DNA of 64,000 nucleotides from Psychrobacillus sp. FSL K6-4046 (GTDB taxonomy: Bacteria > Bacillota > Bacilli > Bacillales_A > Planococcaceae), in NCBI RefSeq assembly GCF_038624605.1, contig NZ_CP152020.1, positions 744,001-808,000 on the forward strand, read 5' to 3'. Below are positions 41,733 to 64,000 of the stretch, piece after piece. Made by a program: the position numbers and the translations under genes. The notes under the pieces are model-generated. The model did no database searches. It saw nothing but the letters and a program-made list of their open reading frames with translations, and was not told the DNA's origin. How positions within the stretch are numbered: position 1 is the stretch's first letter; each line of letters opens with the position of its first letter.

Positions 41733-41737
41733 CGTGC

Positions 41738-42068
41738 GTCCCTGTGTCAGACACAATTCTTTTGGGTGAACCCTTGTGTAGGTGGGTTTTTTGTGGAATT
41801 GTGTTTGTCCCTGTGTTACACACAATTCGCTACAATTCGGAGGGGTGACGTCATCCCTGTGTCAGACACAATTCTTTTAGGTGAACCCTTGTCAGAGGTG
41901 ATTTTTTGTGGAATTGTGTTTGTCCCTGTGTCGCACACAATTCGCTACAATTCGAAGGTTTGACTTCATCCCTGTGTCAGACACAATTCTTTTGGGTGAG
42001 CCCTGTGATAGGTGGGCTTTTCGGGGGATTTTGTTTGTCCCTGTGTTACACACAATTCGCTACAATTC
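41738..42068. repeat. REP-like array, 115-bp period, three units
   Basis: TCCCTGTGT-type cores occur at 41738, 41807, 41853, 41922, 41968 and 42037. The two alternating kinds repeat with an exact 115-bp period. The palindrome TGTGTCAGACACA and the outer GAATTGTGT/ACACAATTC arms can fold into hairpins. The same unit forms the array at 51.6-52.1 kb next to the RAYT gene. Confidence 0.93.
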
Positions 42069-51556: not shown

Positions 51557-51621
51557 TGTTTGGGGGGCGTGGTGTTGTGTGCTGTTTTTGTTGTGCGCGT
51601 CCCATTCGGAAAGTTGTGCGT

Positions 51622-52135
51622 GTCCCTGTGTCAGACACAATTCTTTTTGGTGAGACCTGTGGTAGATGGGGTTCTGGTGGAATTGTGTTTGTCCCTGTGT
51701 GAGACACAATTCTCTACAATTCGGAAGATTGACTGCAATTCGGAAGATTGACTGCATCCCTGTGTCAGACACAATTCTTTTTGGTGAGCCCTATGGTAGG
51801 TGCGGTTCTGGTGGAATTGTGTTTGTCCCTGTGTGGGACACAATTCTCTACAATTCGGAAGGATGAACCGATCCCTGTGTCAGACACAATTCTTTTTGGT
51901 GAGTCCTGTGGTAGATGGGGTTCTGGTGGAATTGTGTTTGTCCCTGTGTCAGACACAATTCTCTACAATTCGGAAGGGTGACTCGATCCCTGTTTCAGAC
52001 ACAATTCTCTACAGTTCGGAAGGTTTGACTTCATCCCTGTGTGACACACAATTCTTTTTGGTGAACCCTGTGGTAGGTGGGGTTCTGGTAGAATTGTGTT
52101 TGTCCCTGTGTGGGACACAATTCTCTACAAAGGCG
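51622..52135. repeat. REP-like array, 115-bp period, beside RAYT
   Basis: Cores occur at 51622, 51691, 51756, 51825, 51871, 51940, 51986, 52033 and 52102. The same 115-bp period as at 41.7 kb applies in most of it (51756 to 51871; 51825 to 51940). A 19-bp internal duplication (CGGAAGATTGACTGCA type) shifts the phase at 51720-51755, and a shortened unit lies at 51986-52033. It begins 66 bp after the KDPG aldolase stop and ends 283 bp before the RAYT start. The remaining gap to 52418 shows no gene. Confidence 0.93.
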
Positions 52136-55458: not shown

Positions 55459-57006
55459 ATGAGGAAATGGGTAGGATTAGCAAGTTCTGTACTTTTGACA
55501 GTAGGATTGCTGGTAGCTTGTAGTGGAGATGATTCATCTACTTCTACGACCAAAAAAGAGGACGACAGGACATTGACGATTGCGATGGGAACGGACATGG
55601 TAACATTTGACGTTCATAACCATGTTAATACTTCTACAGAAGCAATTCACGTGAATATGTTTAACTATCTTTTTAAGCGTGATAATGAGACTGGCGAGAT
55701 TTTACCAGACTTAGCAGAGGGGTACGAAAAAATAGACGATAAGACTTGGGAAGTGAAATTAAAAGAAGGAGTTACTTTCCATAACGGCGAGGCGTTAGAT
55801 TCGGAGGATGTTAAATTCTCACTTGAACGTGTTGCGCATGATTCCACGTTATTAGACCACATAAACTATAACTCTATTAAAGAGGTACAAGTTGTGGATG
55901 ACTTAACGTTACGTATCGTTACAAATGAGCCAGACCCGGCTTTATTAAATAGAATTTCAAGGATTGCTTCTAGTATCCTTCCTTCTGAATATATTGAAGA
56001 AAACGGAATGGATCACTTCTTGGAAAATCCAGTTGGGACAGGACCATTTAAATTTTCGAAGTGGGTACGTGACGATCGTATCGTGCTAGAAGTCTATGAT
56101 GATTATTTTGACGGTAAAAATGAAGAATGGGATGAGGTTGTATTCCGTGTCATTCCAGAAAACTCTACACGTGTATCTGAGCTATTAACAGGTGGAGTGG
56201 ATATTGCAACAAACATGCCACCAAGTGAGTGGAAACGTATTGATGAAAACGAGGGTACGCATTTATCTCAAGGTACCTCTAACCGAACGATGATGATATT
56301 TGTACGTTCAACAGAAGGATATCCAACCTCTGATCCTAGAGTTAGAAAAGCTTTGGACTTGGCTATTGATAACAAGGCGATAACCGATAACCTGTTAAAT
56401 GGAGCAGGTATACCAACGATTACACGTGTCGCACCAGGGAACTTTGGTTTTGCAGAAGATCTTTATGACACGTATAACTATGACGTGGAAGAAGCAAAGA
56501 AATTATTGGCAGAAGCAGGATATCCAGATGGTTTTGAAATGACCTTCCATTCTCCAAAAGGGCGTTATTTACAAGATGCTGAAATAGCGGAGATGGTTGC
56601 GGGAATGTGGAGTGCAATTGGGGTAAAAGCAAACGTAGAATTCATGGAGTGGAGTAATTTCGTTGAACTTCGTAATTCAGGAAAAAATAAGGATGCTTAT
56701 TTACTAGCTCTAGGTAACTCTATGTTTGACGCTGCGAACGCATTAGATTGGTATAACTATGAGAGATTCAAAGGTCAAATTGATTATCATAACGAAGAGG
56801 TAGAAGAACTATTAGCAGCAGCTGCTCAAAATATGGACCCAGAAGAAAGAGCAGAACAATATATTAAAGCACAGCATTTATTAGCTGAAGACACGGCTCA
56901 TATCGTATTACACCAAGAATCTATTAACGTAGGTGTAAGTGATGCAATTGATTATACTCCTACAATGGATGAAATCATTTACGTAGAATCTATCAATAAA
57001 AAGTAA
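55459..57006 (+). CDS. Dipeptide/oligopeptide ABC transporter substrate-binding lipoprotein
   Basis: The 515-residue SBP_bac_5 protein has a lipoprotein signal (lipobox LVAC with C22) and the usual peptide-binding core (RTLTIAMGTDMVTFDVHNH, WEVKLKEGVTFHNGEALDSEDV, GTGPFKFSKW). It should capture the substrate outside the cell for the permeases encoded at 57557-59387. The ATG at 55459 has better spacing from AAAGGGG than that at 55453. A weak hairpin after the gene may reduce expression of the downstream permeases. Confidence 0.93.
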   Translation: MRKWVGLASSVLLTVGLLVACSGDDSSTSTTKKEDDRTLTIAMGTDMVTFDVHNHVNTSTEAIHVNMFNYLFKRDNETGEILPDLAEGYEKIDDKTWEVKLKEGVTFHNGEALDSEDVKFSLERVAHDSTLLDHINYNSIKEVQVVDDLTLRIVTNEPDPALLNRISRIASSILPSEYIEENGMDHFLENPVGTGPFKFSKWVRDDRIVLEVYDDYFDGKNEEWDEVVFRVIPENSTRVSELLTGGVDIATNMPPSEWKRIDENEGTHLSQGTSNRTMMIFVRSTEGYPTSDPRVRKALDLAIDNKAITDNLLNGAGIPTITRVAPGNFGFAEDLYDTYNYDVEEAKKLLAEAGYPDGFEMTFHSPKGRYLQDAEIAEMVAGMWSAIGVKANVEFMEWSNFVELRNSGKNKDAYLLALGNSMFDAANALDWYNYERFKGQIDYHNEEVEELLAAAAQNMDPEERAEQYIKAQHLLAEDTAHIVLHQESINVGVSDAIDYTPTMDEIIYVESINKK

Positions 57007-57017
57007 ATATGGTGATT

Positions 57018-57047
57018 GGTAGGGAGAGCTTGCTCTTCCTTCCTTTA
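57018..57047 (+). terminator. Hairpin after the SBP gene (partial terminator)
   Basis: AGGGAGAGC pairs with GCTCTTCCT (one G-U pair), followed by T-rich sequence. It may lower read-through into the permease genes, which need less protein. Confidence 0.5.
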
Positions 57048-57091
57048 CTATATAGGTAGAAAATTTAGTTGGTTTGTTCAAGTTCATAGAA

Positions 57092-57236
57092 GATTGTAGC
57101 GGAAGGTGGCGACTCCAGCGGGATGAGTGAGACAGATAAGACATCACAACCACGCGCGTAAGCGATGGGTGATGGCTTATCGCTCCCCCCGCGGAAAGCG
57201 CCCACCTGAAGCGGAAATCCATACTACTTTCTTATT
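57092..57236. repeat. Bacillales hairpin repeat, copy 1
   Basis: The segment with GTAGCGGAAGGTGGCGACTC at the left and GCGGAAATCCATAC at the right is nearly identical to the copy at 57337-57483. The body includes GGGATGAGTGAGACAGATAA and GGCTTATCGCTCCCCCCGCG. Internal self-complementary parts suggest RNA folding. No gene is seen in it. Confidence 0.88.
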
Positions 57237-57336
57237 TTAAAAGGATATTTTTATAGGAAAAACTATGAAATTAATAGTTAATTCAATTTCTTAAAATAAT
57301 GTTTAACTGATTAGACATGACCATTATCTTCGTATG

Positions 57337-57483
57337 GATTGTAGCGGAAGGTGGCGACTCCAGTGGGATGAGTGAGACAGATAAGACATCGCAACCGCGC
57401 TTGTTGTGCTGTGGGTGATGGCTTATCGCTCCCCCCGCGGAAAGCGTCCACCTGAAGCGGAAATCCATACTACTTTCTTATTC
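57337..57483. repeat. Bacillales hairpin repeat, copy 2
   Basis: Nearly identical to copy 1 (differences include GTTGTGCTGTGG for GTAAGCGATGG). It is preceded by GTATG, so that GTATGGATT and AATCCATAC form inverted ends. It ends 73 bp before the first permease gene. A more decayed copy lies at 19.3 kb. Confidence 0.88.
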
Positions 57484-62750: not shown

Positions 62751-62882
62751 ATGTAAATAGGAAAAGCGGCGAAACTATAAAAAGCAGGATTTTTTCGTGT
62801 CTATTGCGAATGAATAACGAAGGATGTTAGGAGGGGCATGTATGAACAATATCAAAGTATAGAAGTAAAGGAGAATATATAT

Positions 62883-63347
62883 ATGATTAAGCTTAGAGAA
62901 ATGAATGACCATGAATTTAATAACTACTTAAGTTTTATGATACCGGATTATGCGAAAGATATTTCGGACAACTATAATCTTCCGATAGATAAAGCTATGG
63001 AAGAATCAGAAATGATGATGAAGGATTTGCTTCCAGATGGTTTATCCACCGAGGGACAATTTTTATACAACCTTTATGATCCTGTAATAGCTAAGGAAGT
63101 AGGAATAATCTGGTTTAGTATAAATATGGAAATTAATCGCGCCTATCTTTACCACCTTTATATTAAAGAAGCATACAGGCAAAAGGGTTACGCAACAAAA
63201 GCCTTAGAGGAATTACAAGATAGAGTAAGAGGGCGTGGAATAGATTCAATTGCCTTGAGCGTATTCGGAAATAATGAGCATGCTTATCGACTATATTCAA
63301 AGCTGGGGTTTACTTCATCTGCTATTTCCATGCACAAACTGTTGTAG
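62883..63347 (+). CDS. GNAT-family N-acetyltransferase
   Basis: The protein of 154 residues has the GNAT fold, with the acetyl-CoA loop EAYRQKGYATKALEELQ (about 97-113) and the C-terminal GNNEHAYRLYSKLGF. The ATG at 62883 follows AAAGGAG at 9 bases and starts the protein where GNAT domains usually begin; a second start at 62838, after TTAGGAGGGG, would add 15 residues and is also credible. The substrate is unknown. Confidence 0.85.
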   Translation: MIKLREMNDHEFNNYLSFMIPDYAKDISDNYNLPIDKAMEESEMMMKDLLPDGLSTEGQFLYNLYDPVIAKEVGIIWFSINMEINRAYLYHLYIKEAYRQKGYATKALEELQDRVRGRGIDSIALSVFGNNEHAYRLYSKLGFTSSAISMHKLL

Positions 63348-63380: not shown

Positions 63381-63527
63381 ATTTTTAAATAATTTCTACA
63401 TATTTCGTACCACAGACTTTAATATTCAAACGCTAGAGAGTAGCGGTGTTTAAGCATTTTCTTTAAGCGAGATAAAGCGGTCTTCCAATTTGAATAAAAA
63501 AATTTTAAATAAATATTGATAAAAGAT

Positions 63528-63552
63528 GTTTAATGATTTTTTAGCGGGGTAT
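63528..63552 (+). promoter_or_regulatory. Sigma-B-type promoter, first RNA unit
   Basis: GTTTAA and GGGTAT separated by 13 bp match the Bacillus sigma-B consensus (GTTTAA-N12-15-GGGTAT). An almost identical element lies 409 bp downstream. A weaker GTTTAA at 63448 may be an older copy. Confidence 0.75.
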
Positions 63553-63598
63553 ATTAATAGTACAAGGCGGAACTACCGAAGGAAAGGACTGGTAAACA

Positions 63599-63697
63599 AT
63601 GTGTTTACAAGAAACTCCAAAGGATGATTTGCACAGCCTTGGCGGAAGATTTGCTTTACTGACGAAAGGTACTCTCGTCGGGAACCGATATATTTAG
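63599..63697 (+). CDS. Possible 32-residue small peptide gene
   Basis: ATG at 63599 opens a frame to TAG at 63697 encoding MCLQETPKDDLHSLGGRF and a further 14 residues ending VGNRYI. The start codon lies in the loop of the GTAAACA/TGTTTAC hairpin. AAGGAAAGG lies about 15 bases before it, longer than usual. The coding call is tentative. Confidence 0.3.
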   Translation: MCLQETPKDDLHSLGGRFALLTKGTLVGNRYI

Positions 63698-63854
63698 GTT
63701 TCGATTCAGTGTATTGTTTTTGCAAGTGAAAGAAAAGTTTTTTGTTTTAAGTGCACCTAAATGTCTGGTTCATTAACAGACGGATTGTCAGTTACGATTT
63801 ACAACGCAACATAAAGTGAATTTTCCGAGTGTATTCCCTTTATAGGGAAAGAAG

Positions 63855-63887
63855 AAGCGTAATCCGAAATTTGGATTACGCTTTTTT
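63855..63887 (+). terminator. Intrinsic terminator of the first RNA unit
   Basis: AAGCGTAATCC pairs perfectly with GGATTACGCTT around GAAATTT, followed by TTTT. Confidence 0.9.
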
Positions 63888-63897
63888 CTGTATGTCT

Positions 63898-63922
63898 GTC
63901 CTTGTGTCAGAAATAATTGCTC
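63898..63922. repeat. Decayed REP core
   Basis: GTCCTTGTGTCAGAAATAATTGCTC resembles the REP core, 11 bp after the terminator. Confidence 0.5.
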
Positions 63923-63936
63923 AGCTAATAAAAGAT

Positions 63937-63961
63937 GTTTAAGTATTTTCCGGCGGGGTAT
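63937..63961 (+). promoter_or_regulatory. Sigma-B-type promoter, second RNA unit
   Basis: GTTTAA, 13 bp, GGGTAT, as at 63528-63552, embedded in GATGTTTAA and GGCGGGGTATAT. Confidence 0.75.
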
Positions 63962-63967
63962 ATAAAT

Positions 63968-64000
63968 AGTACAAGGCGGAACTACCGAAGGAAAGGACTG
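63968..64000 (+). ncRNA. Second sigma-B-driven RNA unit (cut by window edge)
   Basis: The sequence after the promoter, from ACAAGGCGG to GGAAAGGACTG, is identical to the first unit over all 30 visible bases. The rest lies outside the window. Confidence 0.5.

Follow-up and report, generated by a model that had tools for sequence, protein, structure and literature searches.

The window analysed here is a 64,000-nucleotide stretch (G000:C1:744001-808000) of the 3.89-Mb chromosome of a Psychrobacillus strain. Near its right edge lies a tandem pair of RNA units, flanked by an acetyltransferase-like gene (our own reading of the open reading frame at 62838-63347) and by a glutamate dehydrogenase family gene on the opposite strand (L005:3339-4748:-), which follows unit 2. 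A first-pass annotation, made from the window's letters, had described two copies 409 bases apart, each with a GTTTAA-N13-GGGTAT promoter, and the coordinates of both units bear this out. With its promoter, unit 1 spans 63528-63888; unit 2 starts at 63937 and ends at G000:C1:808298, which is ~64298 in window numbering and ~300 bases beyond the right edge. The common 5′ segment of at least 30 bases reported at that stage is likewise present, and the likeness between the units runs through three ungapped blocks (96% over 182 nt, 97% over 97 nt, and 98% over a 49-nt terminator part). Unit 1 is complete, as had been claimed, and ends in a terminator stem of 11 perfect pairs (63855-63883). A protein-coding leader beyond the right edge, which had been raised as a counter-explanation, is not found there; unit 2 is a second complete unit with its own terminator, followed by the opposite-strand gene. 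The features of the locus are collected in Table 1.

Table 1. Features of the tandem RNA locus in window coordinates; the helices of the first copy were placed by hand
Feature	Position	Strand	Remark
-35 element GTTTAA, unit 1	63528..63533	+	sigma-B type
-10 element GGGTAT, unit 1	63547..63552	+	13-base spacer after the -35 element
RNA unit 1	63560..63888	+	ends inferred from promoter and terminator
P1 5′ strand CAAGGC	63563..63568	+	RNA 5′ end
P2 outer stem 5′ strand	63576..63583	+	pairs with 63616-63623; internal loop in this copy
P2 apical hairpin GTAAAC-AATGT-GTTTAC	63592..63608	+	around ATG; 7 of 8 pairs changed on both sides
32-codon open frame MCLQETPKDDLHSLGGRFALLTKGTLVGNRYI	63599..63697	+	probably incidental
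P2 outer stem 3′ strand	63616..63623	+	pairs with 63576-63583
23-base conserved core TGCACAGCCTTGGCGGAARATTT	63630..63652	+	kept across genera
Pseudoknot (PK) 5′ strand TGCAC	63630..63634	+	start of core
P1 3′ strand GCCTTG	63636..63641	+	within core
P3 5′ strand GCGGAAGATTTG	63642..63653	+	in core
P4 hairpin CTGACGA...TCGTCGG	63659..63681	+	63659-63665 with 63675-63681
P5 hairpin GAACC...GGTTTC	63682..63702	+	from sequence; outside the 26-row pair count
U-tract TTTTTTG	63738..63744	+	proposed alternative partner of core CGGAARA (P3*)
PK 3′ strand GTGCA	63751..63755	+	after U-tract
P6 hairpin GTCTG...CAGAC	63763..63781	+	short in this genome; P7 of other copies missing here
P3 3′ strand TGAATTTTCCGA	63817..63828	+	near RNA 3′ end
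P8 small hairpin TTCCCT...AGGGAA	63834..63849	+	after P3
Intrinsic terminator, 11-bp stem and T run	63855..63887	+	unit 1
Sigma-B-type promoter GTTTAA-N13-GGGTAT, unit 2	63937..63961	+	-35 at 63937-63942, -10 at 63956-63961
RNA unit 2, first 32 bases	63969..64000	+	runs on to ~64298 outside the window

Both window units lack the same ~30 nt that make the 5′ arm of helix P7 in other Psychrobacillus copies, so this deletion is either older than the tandem duplication or was spread by conversion. The window also contains an intergenic repeat, TGTCCCTGTGTCAGACAC, with 17 matches of at most three mismatches (0.01 expected). These lie at 41737-42053, 51621-52118, 62565, 63349 and 63897, forming two regularly spaced arrays and three single copies; two of the single copies flank the acetyltransferase-like gene and one lies between the RNA units. 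Elsewhere in the window (56908-57468, minus strand), two adjacent open reading frames with stretches such as SAGGAISHHP and LIPLESPPSATI in common constitute a duplicated intergenic repeat.

Distribution and genomic setting

We compared 120 distinct copies of the RNA, the window's units among them. A DNA query matched 16 of 61 relatives, namely 12 of the 18 Psychrobacillus genomes and four other genera. Psychrobacillus contributes 19 full-length copies, several in tandem, and the remaining six of its 18 genomes lack the RNA. One genome of the window's own species carries an acyl-CoA dehydrogenase gene at the site of the RNA pair, which marks the RNA as accessory. Within the window's family, a 23-base core sequence (at most three mismatches) is found in 122 of 261 genomes and five of 19 genera (Psychrobacillus, Sporosarcina, Planococcus, the Bhargavaea group and the Indiicoccus group); the reversed pattern occurs in 2 of 261. 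The core scan of named genomes gave 106 stretches, with carriers that include Oceanobacillus, Ornithinibacillus, Halolactibacillus, Streptohalobacillus, Amphibacillus and Natronobacillus. The family that includes Oceanobacillus and Halolactibacillus has the core in 21 of 159 genomes and 10 of 46 genera, with one degenerate copy (G769), and the RNA is also carried by Bacillus wudalianchiensis and B. thermotolerans. Because the search was anchored on the core, it may have passed over relatives whose core has diverged. With a covariance model of the 5′ domain, 26 of 398 genomes from across the class matched at E <1e-7 (25 from the window's family and one from that of Oceanobacillus and Halolactibacillus); the other 11 of the 37 matched genomes gave E values of 0.005-0.097, which we took for noise. 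Two stretches, L068 and L103 (NZ_JADHDX010000001.1), are labelled Arthrobacter beigongshangensis. Their GC content of 0.40-0.41 and the neighbours they have in common with Sporosarcina indicate that this record is probably a mislabelled Sporosarcina.

Flanking genes are constant within groups, and no gene family is found throughout (80 of the 106 stretches). Planococcus has thioesterase and M3 peptidase genes near the RNA, and one or both, rearranged, lie near the Bhargavaea-group and Indiicoccus copies; a common thioesterase-family and/or M3-peptidase neighbour, in changed order or orientation, thus links Planococcus, Bhargavaea, Edaphobacillus and Indiicoccus. Parts of Sporosarcina have a DNA/RNA helicase-like gene or HPr kinase at this place, and Oceanobacillus a PadR regulator. 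These neighbourhoods bear on whether the RNA could be a cis-acting leader or riboswitch with a conditional terminator. A complex fold followed by a terminator is a riboswitch-like layout, and in Planococcus the thioesterase-family gene is often downstream on the same strand. In Bhargavaea, however, the same gene is on the other strand, while Sporosarcina, Oceanobacillus and Halolactibacillus have different neighbours; the window itself has unit 2 downstream of unit 1 and, past that, a gene in the opposite orientation. Orientations change, and no constant downstream gene in the same transcript was found in the 80 of 106 stretches, nor was any alternative helix overlapping the terminator. Since flanking genes differ between most genera, we rejected the leader reading and regard it as very unlikely. 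Together with the RNA's own terminator, the differing flanks argue for a stand-alone gene.

A dispersed repeat or mobile element without a function of its own would also leave behind several copies, some in tandem, along with decayed 3′ ends (L030 and L031) and presence or absence between close strains. To this idea we give the least credence of all. Conserved pairing with compensatory base-pair changes speaks against a mobile element, the promoter keeps a fixed place, and genomes mostly carry one to three copies. The degenerate core had no exact match in viral contigs, and blastn, with one RNA copy as query in each case, found no match in plasmids or phages.

Promoter and coding potential

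Promoters were scored against GTTTAA-N12..15-GGGWAT, whose hexamers we take to be the sigma-B consensus. For the 118 copies whose sequence includes 50 bases upstream, the match is perfect in 34, has one mismatch in 60 and has two in 20. A sigma-B-type promoter at the RNA start, one criterion of the SigB-dependent sRNA class, is therefore found in 114 of 118 copies with no more than 2 mismatches in 12 positions, its -10 element ending 8-10 bases before the conserved ACAAGGC start. The same search gave 0 of 112 in control stretches lying another 300 bases upstream and, among letter shuffles, 16 of 590. The exceptions are L055, with three mismatches; L028, with a replaced upstream region; L154, with a mis-anchored start (in L220 this RNA shows a -10 element CGGGAAT); and L218 (G728), a diverged copy from a metagenome bin with a TATAAT-like -10 element and no sigma-B promoter, in which P1 pairing is kept by a compensatory change. 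L028 is the second copy of Psychrobacillus sp. OK028. The loss of its sigma-B promoter region, along with L030 and L031, which are 3′-end remnants, points to duplication and decay of the RNA gene.

A SigB gene scored over the NCBIfam cut-off in all 21 RNA-bearing genomes tested and also in all nine RNA-less genomes tested, so sigB alone does not explain the presence of the RNA. From its promoter, the RNA would be expected to accumulate under general stress via sigma-B.

Earlier emphasis had fallen on a small start codon enclosed by a hairpin. This emphasis was misplaced, as the ATG in the P2 hairpin occurs only in Psychrobacillus and two relatives and the stem is kept without it in other genera (e.g., ATAAACGA..TCGTTTAT in L018). 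The ATG opens a 32-codon frame, and the RNA might accordingly be a small-protein mRNA, or a dual-function RNA, with the frame translated under stress. The frame is open at equal length in 21 of 21 copies from Psychrobacillus (19) and two Bacillus species, one with TAA for TAG, and a G-rich stretch lies upstream of its ATG. Yet within these 21 copies the amino acid is changed at 15 of the 20 variable codons, the variable columns spread 8/9/12 over the three codon positions, and the ATG itself sits within a stem-loop. In other genera the RNA helices persist without a counterpart of this frame, and the frames that run through the core differ from copy to copy in start, length and phase. This copy-by-copy check, which revealed no protein-level constraint, led us to reject the frame as the conserved feature, and we consider a coding role, which might be confined to Psychrobacillus, improbable.

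A fold that meets on the conserved core

Three long-range helices meet on the 23-base core: P1 with the RNA 5′ end, a pseudoknot (PK) with the middle, and P3 with the 3′ part, the last pairing the core's GCGGAAAATTTG with CAAATTTTCCGC near the 3′ end. The loop of P1 contains P2, and P3 encloses P4 to P7; downstream come P8 and then the terminator. Folded as a single strand, 63560-63892 has a z of -4.66, with 0 of 100 shuffles as good, and the lowest-energy fold of the window copy includes P1, part of P2, P3, P4, P8 and the terminator without comparative input. Two of the stems in the first-pass annotation, GTAAACA-ATG-TGTTTAC and CTGACGA/TCGTCGG, are present and kept in relatives. The third, CGG/CCG, is absent from the conserved model; its bases fall in or beside P1 and P2. 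In the folded RNA, the strands TGCAC, GTGCA, GCGGAAAATTT and AAATTTTCCGC would be expected to be protected.

A covariance analysis of homologues, proposed with that annotation, supports the structure through compensatory changes and through slid and shuffled controls. In an alignment of 26 chosen rows (A3), 84.5% of cells pair, compared with 32.5-40.5% when partners are slid by 1-3 columns, an advantage to which the drawing of the structure from one of the rows contributes. Changes on both sides occur in 25 of 66 pairs (18.0 shuffled), the covariation score is 0.173 (0.136 shuffled, sd 0.006; 0 of 500 shuffles as high) and there are 78 further pair types (68.9 shuffled; 1 of 500 shuffles), in a shuffle test inflated by related rows. 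Double changes fall mostly in P2, P6 and P7, and PK has none within A3. The outer stem of P2 is the weakest helix because only 66% of its cells pair. RNAalifold picks P1 and P3 unaided; of the 21 pairs that it reports, 2 show changes on both sides.

The long-range helices can also be followed in the larger set. Among 119 copies, which leave out the window's first copy because fuzzy matching put its U-tract in the wrong place, every pair of P1 forms in 118 and every pair of PK in 116, and P3 has at least 10 of 12 pairs in 118; one set of pair counts leaves out 23 partial core matches, most of them at contig ends, in Amphibacillus or in the insert-bearing Bhargavaea group. Part of the constancy of these elements is built in, because the copies were searched for by their core, and fuzzy matching located both the U-tract and the 3′ strand of P3. 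A survey of changes in 120 copies, which leaves out L201 and L221, found substitutions outside A3 that keep the pairing. For P1, CAAGGC/GCCTTG becomes CAAGGT/ACCTTG and TAAGGT/ACCTTG, once each; for PK, TGCAC/GTGCA becomes GGCAC/GTGCT in two related copies. The inner end pair of P3 is G-C, U-A, A-U or G-U, and its outermost pair is mismatched in ~36 of the 120 copies (including the window's). With so little variation in two of the three long-range helices, few events underlie the support for them.

Copies from Bhargavaea and Edaphobacillus (L072, L079, L098, L111, L122, L129, L146 and L149) carry a ~300-nt insert between the core and the U-tract, with two or three GGACACCAGGAGGACA-like units spaced ~110 nt from one another. 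One can still recognise P1, PK and the 3′ motifs in these copies, and the search did not find the P3 3′ strand in L098 and L122.

Proposed role and relation to known RNAs

At the level of sequence, comparison among the copies establishes the promoter, P1, PK, P3, P2, P4, P6 and P7, together with the absence of a widely conserved frame. The initial description of the units as sigma-B-driven, self-contained and structured RNAs is thereby strongly supported across genera. That the fold and the stress promoter are kept and a protein is not suggests an RNA with its own job in the general stress response, and the RNA is probably stress-induced and regulatory. We favour, with a probability of roughly 0.55, a stand-alone structured noncoding RNA of ~330 nt that is transcribed by sigma-B, ends at an intrinsic terminator, has a fold contacting its core from three sides and acts in trans under stress. 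Sigma-B RNA polymerase would transcribe each unit up to the intrinsic terminator, and the RNA would then fold around the 23-base core, which is contacted by the 5′ end (P1), the middle (PK) and the 3′ part (P3). The working part would be this compact fold and not an unpaired antisense patch, and we conjecture that its most likely binding partner is a protein or the machinery of translation or transcription, much as in OLE and other stress ribonucleoproteins.

A different possibility, which we hold only tentatively, is a sigma-B-dependent base-pairing sRNA resembling the RsaA and Sbr RNAs of Staphylococcus. An exposed stretch (for example the U-tract/GUGnAAGUGCA region or loops) would repress or activate mRNAs, and the rest would serve as a stabilising scaffold. 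The seed regions of sRNAs are usually exposed, whereas the most conserved bases here lie in helices internal to the RNA. The near invariance of the U-tract is in favour of base pairing with mRNAs, as are a sigma-B promoter, an intergenic position, a terminator and the lack of an open reading frame, the criteria by which SbrA-C are reported to have been found (PMC9266662). The same paper describes the SigB-dependent sRNAs of Staphylococcus aureus (RsaA, RsaD, RsaF and SbrA-C) as likewise intergenic, with a sigma-B promoter, their own terminator and no conserved open reading frame (PMC9266662). The present RNA seems set apart from them in that Rfam scans of the window and 14 loci gave no match at the RNA and that it would have a long-range double-pseudoknot core in place of exposed seeds.

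No RNA family had been recognised at first sight, and the suggested Rfam search agrees, with 0 matches in the window at gathering score in Rfam 15 (4227 families) and nothing at the RNA on its strand in 6 + 8 further loci. A sub-threshold ohsC match close to where the Bhargavaea copy L020 ends, on the strand opposite the RNA, is taken as chance (25.7 bits against a gathering score of 50, E 3.9). 6S RNA and tmRNA are abundant under stress or in stationary phase and fold with long-range pairing or pseudoknots; the present RNA differs from both in having no Rfam match, and ARAGORN found 0 tmRNA genes in eight loci. Neither the core sequence nor a description of the RNA was found in the literature, in a search that covered subscription journals thinly and does not prove absence from print. 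The RNA gene thus appears to be undescribed so far, with copies in many soil and marine Bacillus relatives.

Two large structured RNAs are close in character. OLE (Ornate Large Extremophilic) RNA is likewise a large structured bacterial RNA with alternative secondary structures, according to a recent account, and titles in the OLE literature cited there refer to alcohol tolerance and a stress-responsive RNP (PMC12286853). It has 577 nt in the same account, compared with ~330 nt here, and Rfam gives no match at our RNA (PMC12286853). The raiA motif RNA is also stand-alone and structured, of similar size (205 nt) and with its own 3D fold according to that account, and a reference title there states that its disruption affects sporulation and aggregation (PMC12286853). 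The present RNA departs from it in having a sigma-B promoter, no constant neighbour gene and no Rfam match. The gene layout therefore resembles that of SigB-dependent sRNAs and the large stand-alone fold that of OLE or raiA, and membership in any of these groups is not supported; a likeness in how they work is conjectural.

Sigma-B is a textbook stress regulator, and to our knowledge structured RNAs of its regulon are known from few genera. With its sigma-B promoter and knotted core kept in at least two Bacillales families and two further Bacillus species, the RNA is a candidate for an arm of the general stress response that is common and yet has been overlooked. It is small as well as accessory, and bacteria that carry it are harmless and grow easily.

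A suggestive feature of the stand-alone RNA is a possible switch between P3 and an alternative pairing, P3*. The U-tract is nearly invariant and could form seven pairs with core CGGAAAA in 114 of 119 copies, to the exclusion of P3; the other five lose one or two P3* pairs. Rough duplex energies, with a few rows mis-anchored, are -5.7 kcal/mol for P3*, -15.3 for P3 and -2.1 for shuffled sequences. With P3 far more stable on these rough values, P3* would be a folding intermediate. During transcription, core CGGAAAA may pair first with the internal U-tract (P3*); the 3′ strand would then take the core over (P3), and the pseudoknot would close only once the RNA is nearly complete. More speculatively still, the RNA could represent a new class of sigma-B-induced pseudoknotted folding-switch RNA, in which P3* followed by P3 would join the 5′ end, middle and 3′ end into a stress ribonucleoprotein without described counterpart. 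U-to-C changes opposite the core's two G's are present in Halolactibacillus/Streptohalobacillus, in Natronobacillus (fully Watson-Crick) and in one Psychrobacillus, and one U-to-C change lies opposite an A (L155). A triple helix of the U-tract with P3, prompted by the U6 run beside A-U pairs, was set aside because the U-to-C changes, in about three lineages, agree with Watson-Crick pairing to the core in antiparallel orientation but do not suit a third strand running parallel.
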